Part shown: positions 2,455-43,533 of the stretch, piece by piece | Position numbering within the stretch: position 1 is the stretch's first letter | Layout of the letters: each line of letters begins with the position of its first letter | From: Apostichopus japonicus | Lineage: Eukaryota > Echinodermata > Holothuroidea > Aspidochirotida > Stichopodidae | DNA length: 64,000 nt | Assembly (NCBI RefSeq): GCF_037975245.1 | Contig: NC_092564.1 | Coordinates: forward strand, 22,967,984-23,031,983 | Direction: 5' to 3' | The notes under the pieces: generated by a model | The model's input: the letters and a program-made list of their open reading frames with translations, nothing else | Databases searched by the model: none | Told to the model about the DNA's origin: nothing | Position numbers and translations under genes: made by a program

Positions 2455-5400
2455 TCAATTTCAATTCAATTCATTTCATAAGACTTTATTTCAATCTCTC
2501 GCATTAAAGTATGCAATTATGACAATAGACGTGGGTAAATGTACAAGAGAACAAGAGATTGAGGAGTGCCAACAAGAAGCTCTGCAGAGCTTGTTTACGT
2601 TGACACCCCTTTACAAATAAAACATAGAAAGAAGGCTTAAGTATACAGAGAAAACAGAACAAAGATGGCAAAGAAAGGAAAATACAAAATCAATGATAGT
2701 TTGATATAAGATACTCTTTAAGACGTTATTTGAAGGTGTTCAGAGTTTTACAACAAGTAATAGTAGTAGGGAGGGAATTCCAAAGTTTTACGTCGACATA
2801 ACGAATACCAAGTTGTGCAGACCTAAGTCTAAAGTAAGGAACAGTCAATTGATTTGGCGCACGGTTGGGATAAGGATCGTTACGTAACTGAAAATAGTTG
2901 CGAAAAGTCGACGGAGCATTATCATGTAACCAATTGAAAATAAAAATACCAACATAGTAACGATTTATATCATAGATACTAAGAGCGTTAAGTGTAGTAA
3001 ACAGGGGTGCTGTATGCTGGAGGTAATCCGCATTACAAATATAACGAATGGCTCTCTTTTGAAGTAAGTAAAGGGGTTGAATTCTAGAGGCATGGGTACT
3101 GCCCCAAATAACATTACAATATGTAAGATAGGGAAGTATGAGTGTATTATACAAAGTGACCAATGTGCTTCTGGGAATGATTTGGCGAAGTCTATTAAGA
3201 ACTCCAGCGCCTTTAGACACTTTCATACAGATATTCTGAATATGATTATTCCAAGAAAGATGATTATCTATATAAACCCCAAGAAATTTAGTAGTCTTAG
3301 ACAGCATAACATCAACACCGCAAAGTCTGATACTATTAATGTTAGGATTTAAGTGCTTTGAAGGTGTACTAAACACAATAGAGGTAGTTTTCTTAACATT
3401 TAGTGACAATTTATTTGCACAAAACCAATCATGAATATATGTAAACTCATTCTGTATAGTATCCAATAGAAAATTAATGTCATTACTGGAAAAGAACAGG
3501 TTGGTATCATCAGCATAAGAGATTATATGAAAATTGTTGCTGGCTCTATAGAGGTCATTAACATAAATTATAAACAACAATGGACCAAGTATGGACCCTT
3601 GAGGAACACCACACTTAATTGGCTTAGAAACAGAATTTATATTATTAATAACAACAAACTGGTGACGATCAGCAAGATAGCTTTTGAACCACTGAAGTAC
3701 AGTTCCCCGGATTCCATAATGACTAAGTTTTACAAGTAAAATGTTATGGTCAAGGGTATCAAACGCCTTCGACAGATCCAGAAATATACCAGAAGCATAC
3801 TGATTATTTTCGAAAGCTTCCATAACTTTACAAGTAAAATGTAAAATAGCATGTGTAGTTGAGCGGCCAGGAAGGAAACCAAATTGATAGTTATACAGTA
3901 AATTATGCTTAGCATTCAAGTTATATAACCGTGAGAACATTATTTTTTCGATTACCTTGGAGAAACATGGGAGAACTGAAATGGGTCTATAATTATTCAC
4001 GGATTCCTTTTCACCGGCCTTAAAGACAGGAACAACTCGAACTATTTTTAAAGATGTGGGGACAACACCAAGCTCAAAAGAGAGATTACAAAGATATGTG
4101 AGTGGAATACATAATGAATGGGCAACATGTTTTACAATAATAGCAGAAACACCATCAAAACCAGCAGCGGATGGCTTGAGTGATAGAAGTACTTTAAGGA
4201 CCTCATCTCTTGTTGCAGGAATAATGAATAAAGAGTCAATGACTGGTGCTTGCAGGTACATTTTGTAGTGAGAATTAACATTAGGAATCTTATGTTGAGT
4301 GGCTGGACCAATAGTAGTAAAATAATCATTAAAAATGTTTCCAATATCCAATGGATTAGAAAAACTGACCCCCTGATAATTAATCTGGTCAGGAGTGCGA
4401 TTAGCTTGTCGACCAATTAAAAGGGTATTTATTGACCGCCACATACTTTTCGCATCCTGGTTGTTATTATTAAACATATTGGTGTAGTAAGACTTTTTGG
4501 CCAGCCTGATAACAGACGTAAGACGATTACGAAAACGTTTGAAGTCGTTCAAGTTGTTTGCAGTACGGCTACGGAGATATTTTTTATATAGACGATTCTT
4601 TGTACAGCAAGAATTAAGGATGGCAGGAGTCATCCAGTCATTCTTGTCACTAATACCCTTCTTTGAACTAGGAACATACGGAAGACAGTTGTTTAAATGC
4701 TTACTAAATATTTTATTAAACTGATCAAATGCAACGTTTACATCATTGCCATAAAAGACATCTTGCCAAGTTTCGTTTTCAATAGCAGACCGAAATAACC
4801 GTATAGTTGCTGGATTAATGTGCCTCCTTAAAGTAATTGACGGAATACTAGTTTTAACATTGTCAATGTCAACAATAGTAAAAACAGGGAAATGATCCGA
4901 AATGTCGTCACAAATTATGCCCGAGGTAGATGACAGTGATGGACTATTCGTAAAAATTACATCAAGAAGTGTAGCAGAGTGTGACGTTATCCTAGAAGGC
5001 AAATTGTGGAGTGGACGAAAAGAGTGAGAGTGTACAAGGTTGATAACTGATTACCGATGTTTTCCGATGTAATTAAGAGATTACAGTTAAAATCGCCCAT
5101 TAAGAAACAACTCCTGTCTTCTCGATTCAATGAAATAAATAAAGTAGAGAACATGTCAAGCACAGTTTCGCTAACACCGGAGGGGCAATAAATAACCCCT
5201 ATGATGATTGGCGAATGAGAAGCCTGTAGTTCTATAAAAGTCGACTCAAATACGCCTTCTACAAATATACTCAAATCTGAACGAGATTTGTATTTAAGAG
5301 ATGAATTGATATATAGTGCGACCCCTCCACCACGCCCTTGCCTAGAGGCATGTTCCATATTATACCCAGGGATGTTGTAGAGAGTATGTAAAGTATTAGG

Positions 5401-39129: not shown

Positions 39130-39528
39130 TAGTGTTCAAACGATTAACCTAATCGGAATTGGTACGATTATTGCATAATCGGAACATAATCGGAATCGGT
39201 AAAAATTACGTGGAATACCAGTTATGTCACCGATTATTCAAAAACATATGGAAGGGGAAAATATCAACTGATGTATTAGGTTTGTTCTTTTACTACGAAA
39301 TATTAAAATAAAGAAACCCTCTCTACGTCTTTCACAATATAATTTCATCAAATTAGGCTGCCAGGGTCGCCGATTTTGCTTCCCTCGTGGTTAGTGACTT
39401 CATACTGTATTTCTCGGCACAGTAAGCATGGCAGCAATACCAATTTCAGGAATTAACGAATGTGCTGGACAAGGTCGGAAATAAGCGGGGGCGTATGGCA
39501 AGCCGTTTTAACATTTACCTCGCAATTA

Positions 39529-39989
39529 GACTTAAGTCGAATACATTTCACTTAAGTGGAATACATTCTACTTAAGTGAAATGGAATTCCACTTAAGTGA
39601 AATGTATTCCACTTAAGTGGAATTCAATTTCACTTAAGTGGAATTCAATTTCACTTAAGTAGAAATGGACATTTCTATTTCACTTAAGTGGAAATGAATT
39701 CCACTTAAGTGGAATACATTTCCACTTAAGTGGAATTGTATTCCACTTAAGCTAAATAGCCCATCTATTTCACTTAAGTGGAATACAATTCCACTTAAGT
39801 GGAATGCATTTCCACTTAAGTGAAATACAATTCCACTTAAGTGGAATGCATTTCCACTTAAGTGGAATTGTATTCCACTTAAGTGGAATACAATTTCACT
39901 TAAGTGGAATAACATCTTTTGGGCGTCAATTTCACTTAAGTGGAATTCTATTCTGCTTAAGTAAAATACAATTCCACTTAAGTGGAAAT
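39529..39989. repeat. left palindrome array (CCACTTAAGTGG type)
   Basis: About 21 units spaced 20-25 bp, each centred on CTTAAG. Eight carry the perfect 12-bp palindrome CCACTTAAGTGG by hand count, and the others differ by one or two bases. The spacers are short words such as AATACA, AATGCATT and AATTGTATT. Each palindrome contains opposed CACTTAA and TTAAGTG, the core site of NK2-class homeodomains. Confidence 0.9.
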
Positions 39990-40090
39990 GTTGATATGTG
40001 GCTTACATATTTAGGGTAATGTTCGTCATAACGCATTCAATTGCTCATCACATATGATGATTTAGTCGATCCTCGTTGCACGTGTACATC

Positions 40091-40273
40091 ATGGCTATGG
40101 CTAATCATTCACATCTAACATTGCTGGAATGCGATCAAATAATTGTTGTTGTTAGAGACACAATTCGAAGTGTTGTTTCCTCACTTGCACAGGGGAACAA
40201 TCAGTATGATGAACAACAGAGGCGACTTACATCTTGTTTAAGTAACATAGGCAGAATTCGTAACTTTAGATAG
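40091..40273 (+). CDS. short protein-like frame inside the IS3EU-like element
   Basis: 60 codons from ATG at 40,091 (MAMANHSHLTLLECDQIIVV...) to TAG, ending SCLSNIGRIRNFR. Composition is protein-like (predicted helix, few low-complexity residues). It sits just inside the left array, where the N-terminus of a transposase might be expected. It could be a remnant of the autonomous parent's N-terminal domain; I do not recognise a family. Confidence 0.3.
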   Translation: MAMANHSHLTLLECDQIIVVVRDTIRSVVSSLAQGNNQYDEQQRRLTSCLSNIGRIRNFR

Positions 40274-40375
40274 TGAAACTTTTGACGAAATAAAAGATTC
40301 CATCCAAAACCCAAAATCCACAAAAAGTAAAACGTTTTCTTGCCCTTGTCAATGCGTTTTCGGCTGTAGCTCCAA

Positions 40376-41452
40376 CAGGCGCGGCGGAACGGAAAAATTA
40401 TTGGGGGGGCTAATGTGTGGAGACTATCTAAGCGGAGCGCCACCATCGGCGTACAAGAAAATTTTGGGTTTTTTCAAACCCCCAGATGGCCGGAAACGGC
40501 ACTTCCCGAGTGTTTAATGCTGCGAATACCTAGCCCTAAAATATGGGTCTCAAGCCTGCAATTTTTCAGATTGCACCTAAAAGTCTGTAAAAACATTGTA
40601 ATTTGTATGTTCGATGGTGTTTTAAGAGAGTAGCTATTCCTCGTAGTGTACTCGCAAAGACGTTTTTGAGTGTAGTAAGGGCAGTGGCGGAGCTAGGGGT
40701 ATTGGTCAGGGGGGGGGCAAGAATGGTCTGTAGTGGCGCTTTCGACACTATCTAAGCGGAGCGCCACCACAAGTTGGCGCGGAGCGTACAGAAAATTTTT
40801 GAGAAAAGATACTCCCTAGATTGCAGGAAATGACCCTTTCCGGGCCTTGCTAATTTGCAGATTAACGGAGAATAAAAAGGTGTCGTCGCCATTTTGTCGA
40901 AAAATTACACCAACAGAATATGACAAATGTCAATAGGTATATGAGAGCGCAATAAAATAGTCAATAATCGCGAATAAGTAAAAAGTAGTGAAAAGCTGAA
41001 AAGGGCGCCAGCACTCCATTTGAGTCCGTCAGGGGGGGGGGCATCTGCCCCCTGACTGTATCTATGGACGCTCCGCCACTAAGTAAGGGGATGTTGGAGA
41101 ACTGGTTGAAATGAGGCAAGTCATTGGCCTAAGACGAAGTTGTGTTACGCTTACCGGTACTCACACTCACTGCTTCCACTTTTCACGGGGCGTGAAGACG
41201 CGGTTGGGGTGACAATGTGGTCTATAGCCAGTGGACGGGCCGAGGGTCCCCCAGCAATTACTAAAATTATTACACCTATATATATAGAATACGTGTGCAT
41301 CGGACAGATCGACAAGTATACATTGAAAAATGGGCAGATGCACGTTTCGGAGCCTTGGTAAATATTGGGGGGGCTTATCATGCATTTGCCCCCTCAACTT
41401 TTTCATTGGGGGGGCTGAGCCCCCCCAAGCTCCCCCGGTTCCGCCGCCACTG
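40376..41452. mobile_element. hAT MITE nested in the IS3EU-like element
   Basis: Left CAGGCGCGGCGGAACGG and right CCGGTTCCGCCGCCACTG are imperfect inverted ends, flanked by an exact 8-bp duplication AGCTCCAA (40,368-40,375 and 41,453-41,460). Poly-G and poly-C tracts lie near the ends. It contains a further hAT insertion. No transposase. Confidence 0.88.
40682..41081. mobile_element. innermost hAT MITE (400 bp)
   Basis: Left CAGTGGCGGAGC and right GCTCCGCCACTA are inverted ends with one terminal mismatch, flanked by an exact 8-bp duplication AGTAAGGG (40,674-40,681 and 41,082-41,089). G-runs lie inside both ends. Confidence 0.88.
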
Positions 41453-41701
41453 AGCTCCAACCACTTATAATGTATTTGCCATGGCTTTATTTTGGTAATG
41501 GTATTCGTCAGGTACCAGGTCAGGTACGTACGTACACACCTTGCACGGATGTTAAGTGCTAGCTGGATCCCGATGGACAGCCGATATTCATTGTGCACAT
41601 ATTGACACCACGTACGTACGTACACGTATCGCGGCAAGTTGTTTATAATGGCGCGCAAAGGCATGGGCAAAGTTTGGCGGTAAATGTACTAGCCAATCAC
41701 A

Positions 41702-42132
41702 TTCCACTTAAGTGGACTAGCCAATCACATTCCACTTAAGTGAAATACACTATCCAATCACATTTCACTTAAGTGGAATGCATTTCCACTTAAGTGGAAT
41801 TGTATTCCACTTAAGTGAAATAGACAGGACATTCCACTTAAGTGGAATTGTATTCCACTTAAGTAGAATACAATTCCACTTAAGTGAAATGCATTTCCAC
41901 TTAAGTGGAATACAATTCCACTTAAGTGGAATGCAATTCCACTTAAGTGAAATAGAATTTAGCTTAAGTAAAATGCAGTGACAAGTTGATGAATTCAGCT
42001 TAAGTAAAATACAATTAAGCTTAAGTGGAATGGTATTCCACTTAAGTGAAATAGAATTCCACTTAAGTTAAATAGTATTCTGCTTAAGTGAAATTGAATT
42101 CCACTTAAGTGAAATGTATTCGACTTAAGTCG
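41702..42132. repeat. right palindrome array (CCACTTAAGTGG type)
   Basis: About 19 units centred on CTTAAG, five with the perfect 12-bp palindrome. The first units are joined by CTAGCCAATCACATT or TATCCAATCACATT spacers containing CCAAT. The array runs into the right terminal inverted repeat, and the last unit GACTTAAGTC mirrors the first unit of the left array. Confidence 0.9.
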
Positions 42133-43533
42133 AATTGCGAGGTAAATGTTAAAACGGCTTGCCATAGGGGCGACGGGCGATTCGCCCTCGCAAAGTCGCA
42201 AGTGCCAAAAAAGCCCCCCTAAAGCACAATTACGAGTGCGAAAAAGAAATATAAGAAAATCGCCCTCGTTATATCAGGTGTCTGTGTAAAATTAATTGTG
42301 ACGTGCGTTTGCTTTAGCTAGGAATTGCAGTTGCAGCGCGAATCGCGCAAACAGTTCTCACATCTTGCATCAAATTTGAAGCAGTGCGGGAGGGTCGCGC
42401 ACAATCACCGGGAATTTCCCGCAGAGTGACTGGCAAATTACGGCCTCCACAAAGCAATTTCAGTACCAGCGACAATAACCTAAAATCCCCACAAATCTCC
42501 GACCACATGGTAGCCTTACTTCACACTAAGCCAACTACATGGATATCTAACCTTGCCATCTGTTTATTCGCTCTAGTTGTGTCGCAAATAAAAAATAAAA
42601 ATATCCATGGAAACTGCAATTTTCGACCACATGTTAGCCTAACACCCACACTAAGTCCATTGGAAATGTAGCCTAACCATCGGTTTGCCAAAAAAAAAAA
42701 AATGCGTAGCTTAGTTTACAACTTTCAATTTGCTGGAAATCGGCATTTGTTTGGAAGGTATGTGCTATGTCTTATAGAGGGAATGTTATATTTTATATTG
42801 GAGTAGTTTCTAGTTATTATTATTTCTTTACATCAATCTGGTAACATTTTAGAGCAATTTTAAACAAGTTACGATGGTACAATTTGCTTTTCAGTTTGAT
42901 TGGCCTAAGCTTACATTTTCTAATTGAACCTGAATGGAGTTAAATAGGTAACGAATAGGTATGTTTAACTTCAAGTTCGTAACATTTCTATTTGTTCATA
43001 AACGGTATAATACTGAAAATAAGTAGAAAATAATGTCGGAATGAAGGCAATATGTTATTAAAATTTACACTTTGGTAAAGATTGAAGATGGATGGTTTGT
43101 CTGAGATACTTTGTGAGATGGATATATTGAGTAACTATTCTTAGCCCATTTCAAGCCATTAACAGGTGACATTCGCGTCAAGGTGGTTAGGCCATTCGCT
43201 TAGCACAGTGCTGAGTTGGTAGGATGTCATATTTTCGTATTTTGGAAATTAAAAAAAAAACAAATCTTTTTTTTTCTTTCCGAGAAACTCCAGAGGTAAT
43301 TTGGTACATACAAAAGGATACTAAGAGCTTTGTATTACAACGAAGCAAAAGGAAACAGAGGAAAATCACAACAATAATTGTTTCTATCACAAACTTAATT
43401 GCCGATTTCGTATAAACGGGATATTTTCTCAGCGTCAAATAATCGGAATCAGAATCGGTACGATTATGAAAAAAATAATCGGTAATCGGTGTTTTCTGTT
43501 ATGCATAATCGTTTGAACACTACTAGTCTGAAG

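Follow-up and report, generated by a model that had tools for sequence, protein, structure and literature searches.

The window analysed here, a 64,000-nucleotide stretch of the Apostichopus japonicus genome, contains a 2,673-bp element (positions 39494-42166) packed with short palindromes centred on CTTAAG. This raises the question of what kind of element carries such arrays and which protein reads them. NK2-class homeodomain proteins bind T(C/T)AAGTG, and an earlier note had taken the arrays for NK2-type sites.

Anatomy of the palindrome-bearing element

We counted 40 CTTAAG, 34 ACTTAAGT, 28 CACTTAAGTG and 13 CCACTTAAGTGG within the element; 500 dinucleotide-preserving shuffles contained on average 0.8 CTTAAG (maximum 4) and never CCACTTAAGTGG. 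These figures bear out the earlier description of about 40 palindromes, 13 of them perfect. The CTTAAG sites fall into two clusters, with 21 in the left array (39531-39982) and 19 in the right (41707-42129). The ends are formed by terminal inverted repeats of 72 nt that are 97% complementary, the left arm (39494-39565, forward strand) starting with TATGGCAAGCCGTTTTAACATTTACC and the right arm (42095-42166, reverse strand) ending with GGCTTGCCATA. A 6-bp target-site duplication, GGGGCG, lies on either side (39488-39493 and 42167-42172). Together with the many genomic copies described below, these features confirm that 39494-42166 is a transposon. The arrays had been placed just inside both terminal repeats; they are indeed two subterminal clusters, but the outermost palindrome lies within the terminal repeat itself. 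The repeat unit also had to be redrawn, from 12 bp to an 18-bp palindrome with the consensus ATTCCACTTAAGTGGAAT. Units are mostly spaced at 21 bp (14 of 20 intervals in the left array and 13 of 18 in the right); a few intervals measure 20 or 27-36 bp.

Between the arrays, tblastn identified a remnant of transposase exon 1 on the forward strand at 40091-40273 (C4:23008074-23008256), 93% identical to residues 1-61 of an 83-aa query and carrying one internal TAG. A second piece of the same remnant, in another frame of that strand, covers query residues 60-83 (40266-40337; C4:23008249-23008320). A Pfam search with the 83-aa exon-1 remnant gave no match at cutoff. Elsewhere in the window, a 774-aa reverse transcriptase frame on the reverse strand (2726-5050; RVT_1, 6.9e-36) probably represents a LINE-type element.

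Genomic copies and two subfamilies

Across the genome searched (671.58 Mb in 35 contigs), CCACTTAAGTGG occurs 1248 times, compared with 24 for its reversed control, while the 26-nt terminus, allowing up to 3 mismatches, has 394 matches on one strand and 392 on the other, and its reversed control none. For comparison we used 46 short two-ended copies and 2 long ones. The short copies were mostly the first-listed matches to the 26-nt terminus, with a few added from the CCACTTAAGTGG search and the exon-1 tblastn, and this choice, made mainly by exact terminus, favours young copies. Outside the 46 are loci at which a single end was recognised or sites are few (L007, L008, L010, L011, L049 and L050), L057 (two ends, 32 CTTAAG) and additional ends in L005, which L002-L004 overlap, and in L013, where one element is nested inside another; L001 lies outside the examined set. 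Pieces with few sites thus exist, since L010 and L011 have the terminus and only 5 and 3 CTTAAG, respectively.

The 6-bp duplication is exact around 38 of the 46 short copies and both long ones; of the eight other two-ended copies among the 48, four have one mismatch and four have more. Alternative duplication lengths of 4, 5, 7 or 8 matched in 0-1 of the 46 short copies. The 40 exact duplications comprise 28 distinct sequences, with G at position 2 in 24 and C at position 5 in 21; the insertion target of the family is symmetric, and this diversity does not suggest a single target gene. TATGGC..GCCATA stands at both ends in 46 of the 48 copies, which were largely selected by that terminus, the exceptions being L045 (GCCACA at one end) and L056 (TATTGC). 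The arrays persist in the collected copies: two are present in 45 of the 46 short ones, including L014, whose right array lies ~0.9 kb from its end, and the exception is the 899-bp copy L051, which is almost all array, with its arrays fused. Array size ranges from 13 to 35 sites per end.

Near some contig ends, copies recur about every 170-200 kb (C19:31.0-32.36 Mb, C20:0.28-1.24 Mb, C21:0.2-0.79 Mb, C4:29.27-29.49 Mb and others). One flank, with the duplication TGCACG, is common to several copies, at loci L042-L044, L046, L047, L050 and L008. The sequences suggest that a long repeated chromosome segment, with one copy per unit, lies behind this recurrence.

The copies form two subfamilies. 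Subfamily A (27 copies, including the window element) carries mostly TCCACTTAAGTGGA and its one-base variants, and subfamily B (19 copies) mostly TYTACTTAAGTARA and relatives. With units seeded on the outer ATT/AAT, CTTAAG forms the middle of 724 out of 770 in A and of 673 out of 710 in B, the B set taking in a long copy of 21.4 kb. Centre positions are conserved at 98-100% in units seeded in this way; with the centre fixed by the search, the outer ATT/AAT bases are conserved at 88-99%, compared with 41-66% for the 3-bp spacers. The median pairwise identity of the internal cores, leaving out three atypical copies and the long copy, is 95.8% in A and 94.6% in B. The copies are therefore fairly young, so conservation within a subfamily is by itself no proof of selection, and the comparison of A with B is the better test. 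Some B-type short elements contain an extra internal terminus, TATGGCAAGCCGTTATAACATTTACC (L019:734, L020:734, L021:1562 and others), possibly a trace of their origin.

Long relatives and placement among IS3EU elements

The subfamily-A coding remnant gave 120 tblastn matches in the genome, among them one open frame, 38% identical, on C16. This locus has a B-type array and terminus, with the other end 21.4 kb away, and defines a first long element (C16:5792413-5813831, 21,419 bp) with CGAACC on both sides. A second (C1:12260970-12283636, 22.7 kb between ends) has CGGCCG on both sides. The 21.4-kb copy was read throughout, and the second at its ends and over 1.4 kb containing the integrase, whose frame (C1:12277292-12278095) is 97% identical to that of the first. 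Both belong to subfamily B. We found no long subfamily-A element; A is represented by its exon-1 remnant, 38% identical to exon 1 of B.

Frames assigned to the transposase run inward from the right end of the 21.4-kb element, in the order exon 1, helix-turn-helix (HTH) exon, a frame that holds what is presumably the first catalytic Asp, and the integrase exon; the DDE residues, including that Asp, were judged by eye. The integrase exon matches rva_4 (PF24764, E 2.7e-76). The HTH exon, which starts with a GRP arm, matches HTH_7 at 1.8e-4 with 22.0 bits, below the Pfam cutoff of 23.8 bits. When its profile was compared with solved structures, 2lvs (an uncharacterised protein, 7.1e-6) and 8vd6 ('CAP repeat') ranked ahead of the Hin DNA-binding domain (E 0.018). 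The residues of this exon vary between families, with 36-44% identity to the first. NCBIfam gave no match at cutoff for three transposase frames. On the opposite strand, several frames run from the left end and would form one putative gene; one of them, of 362 aa, matches the C-terminal part of the HECT profile (1.1e-11). Both gene models, transposase and HECT, are predictions from these frames. In two more IS3EU families a frame resembling HECT is likewise convergent with the integrase (38.5% over 353 aa in one, 27% over 343 aa in the other), which brings the families with such a frame to three. A 161-bp satellite of 17.7 copies (L052:1094-3933) lies between the two frame sets of the 21.4-kb transposon.

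Placed by its ends, its duplications and the transposase of its relatives, the window element fits a non-autonomous IS3EU DNA transposon of subfamily A. IS3EU elements are described, in the available portions of two papers, as having TA..TA or TAYGG..CCRTA ends, 6-bp target duplications, an integrase-like transposase and another gene in the opposite orientation, which in fungal elements is an alpha-kinase with TET/JBP between (PMC10045372, PMC12730594). The likeness to IS3EU (IS3EU/GingerRoot) thus extends to ends, duplication, integrase and gene orientation. In contrast, a HECT frame takes the place that the alpha-kinase has in the described fungal elements, and subterminal palindrome arrays go unmentioned in the same portions of those papers. 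Among the open PMC papers searched we found neither an IS3EU element with a HECT frame nor one with a phased 21-bp palindrome array.

The earlier note knew of no described element with this architecture, which goes too far. In CACTA elements, palindrome-forming subterminal repeats are bound by TNPA-type proteins, and the soybean Tgmt* group includes a 20.5-kb putative autonomous element, a repeat word that varies between subfamilies and a 3-bp duplication (PMC2613891, as far as its accessible text goes). Many palindrome-forming subterminal repeats, a long partner and a subfamily-specific word are therefore common to CACTA elements (En/Spm, Tgmt*) and the element studied here, whose mode of action is probably similar by analogy. 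The superfamily differs, however: CACTA ends and a 3-bp duplication stand against TATGG ends and 6 bp here, so the element is not a member of CACTA (En/Spm), and the accessible text of PMC2613891 describes no 21-bp phased array of separate 18-bp palindromes.

Two further affiliations were rejected. Dada elements share the 6-bp duplication and have short subterminal inverted repeats; as described in the part of PMC3706591 available, they insert into small RNA genes and have no terminal inverted repeats, unlike the 72-nt repeats found here. Tc1/mariner and Kolobok duplicate TA and TTAA, whereas the repeated flank here is 6 bp.

An integrase search of the genome gave 90 listed matches, 37 of them on contig C17 (hand count). 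We compared 14 IS3EU loci, comprising the 2 long elements and 12 further loci at which the stretches are short and the loci may be truncated. Long palindrome arrays of 20-21 bp occur in 6 of the 14, in three families: the two long elements make up one, a second has ~28 copies of ATTTGCTGATATCAGCAAAT and is represented by three loci, and a third, at a single locus, has 16 AATTTCAGATATCTGAAATT-like units. The latter two families have palindromes centred on GATATC, with no NK2 word in the consensus, arranged at 20-21 bp beside a TATGG terminus and upstream of the integrase exon. They are known from one end, so arrays at both ends are documented for the CTTAAG family only. Among the other eight loci, one carries a palindromic array with GATATC whose period is longer and which continues past the stretch read, and another has a ~22-bp repeat whose palindromic character is not clear. 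Palindromic repeats number just 2-3 copies at three loci, two of which belong to one family, and the stretches read at the last three show no such array. Because only 6 of the 14 carry them, long arrays are not required by every relative. We scanned 83 kb of other sequence and saw no array that reached 8 copies at a period of 18-24. In the ATTTGCTGATATCAGCAAAT family, the homology edge between copies lies at, or 4 bases before, the terminus TATGGCAAGCC; a TATGG-based search, which presupposes that motif, found termini in 7 of 13 scanned stretches.

Candidate roles of the arrays

We consider it likely that the window element is a subfamily-A IS3EU transposon moved in trans by a long relative, and that its arrays are binding sites for the element's own protein. 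The earlier note had itself allowed that the arrays may bind the transposase, and binding by an element-encoded protein is the best reading of the sequences. A rival reading, in which the arrays serve as NK2 homeodomain sites and persist because the element is driven or targeted by NK2 proteins of the host, draws on subfamily A, where two opposed TTAAGTG words (CACTTAAGTG) occur in 67% of palindromes. This proportion falls to 2% in subfamily B and to 3 of 46 CTTAAG in the 21.4-kb element, although B retains the CTTAAG core and the outer ATT..AAT, and the two GATATC-centred families have no such word in their consensus. The arrays share their palindromic form, a period of 20-21 bp and AT-rich outer bases; AAGTG is not among the shared features. 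We therefore regard an NK2 identity of the arrays as very improbable, even if NK2 proteins may bind the subfamily-A arrays by accident. A misleading regulatory claim is thereby removed.

The arrays might instead be functionless subterminal repeats that grew by replication slippage and became fixed as non-autonomous copies amplified their inner sequence. The variable array size, the 899-bp copy made almost entirely of array and the lack of long arrays in some relatives speak for such growth, but the centre and outer bases are far better conserved than the spacers, two arrays persist in nearly all short copies and the period is kept in separate families despite different words, which makes this account unlikely. 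It is similarly doubtful that the arrays are operators serving only the transcription of the element's genes. In the 21.4-kb element the right array stops 22 bp short of the first in-frame transposase ATG and 40 bp short of the next, and ~260 bp separate the other array from the first ATG in the presumed second gene; yet gene-less derivatives retain both arrays, which a pure operator role explains only if the arrays hitchhike. A further possibility is that the palindromes work through hairpin formation in DNA or RNA (a cruciform or other structural signal) and not as protein sites. The consensus unit is self-complementary over ~18 bp, CGA half-sites are strongly paired with CGA in A (26 versus 1.4 expected), and CTA with CTA is mildly in excess in B (51 versus 37.5 expected). 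The CGA pairs, however, are the outermost unit in the terminal repeat, while in A, where copies are related and not independent, CCA with CCA occurs at expectation (303 versus 302) and TCA with TCA falls short of it (4 versus 55). Within the window element alone, half-site pairing gave a Fisher p of 0.07. With the common half-sites uncoupled, even though the outermost unit is coupled, we rejected the hairpin explanation as scarcely credible.

Recognition by the element's own protein is favoured over NK2 because some relatives' arrays use another palindrome; that related families retain arrays while their words change fits a recognition protein encoded by the element. We infer from these sequence patterns that the arrays are bound, by what, and to what effect. 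The binder is probably a transposase dimer using its helix-turn-helix; a dimer is suggested because the array unit is a palindrome, which such an element-encoded DNA-binding protein would read. As 21 bp corresponds to two helical turns, the sites lie on one face of the DNA, making cooperative loading of transposase dimers along both arrays possible. The loaded arrays would then pair the two transposon ends, and the transposase of the long relative would in this way mobilise gene-less copies in trans. Because one array lies directly beside the point where the transposase frame starts, the bound protein may also set transcription of the element's genes. End pairing and promoter control are roles that TNPA has on CACTA elements.

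A more speculative extension, which we hold only tentatively, is that IS3EU elements of animals use a rapidly changing self-recognition code: a dimer encoded by the element would read the helically phased palindromes at both ends, and word and dimer would change together when subfamilies diverge, with the HECT ligase tuning the level of this protein or of a host repressor. If true, each subfamily would mobilise and regulate only its own derivatives (CTTAAG with CCA or YTA flanks, and the GATATC sisters). This one genome offers a natural series of IS3EU families with differing palindrome arrays, in which the way a transposase changes its DNA word could be tested directly. At a further locus (L070:2535-2630), which is without a long array, two IS3EU-type termini (TATGGCAAGCCGTCGGGGTCATAACGTATG, on both strands) stand back to back, ~50 bp apart.
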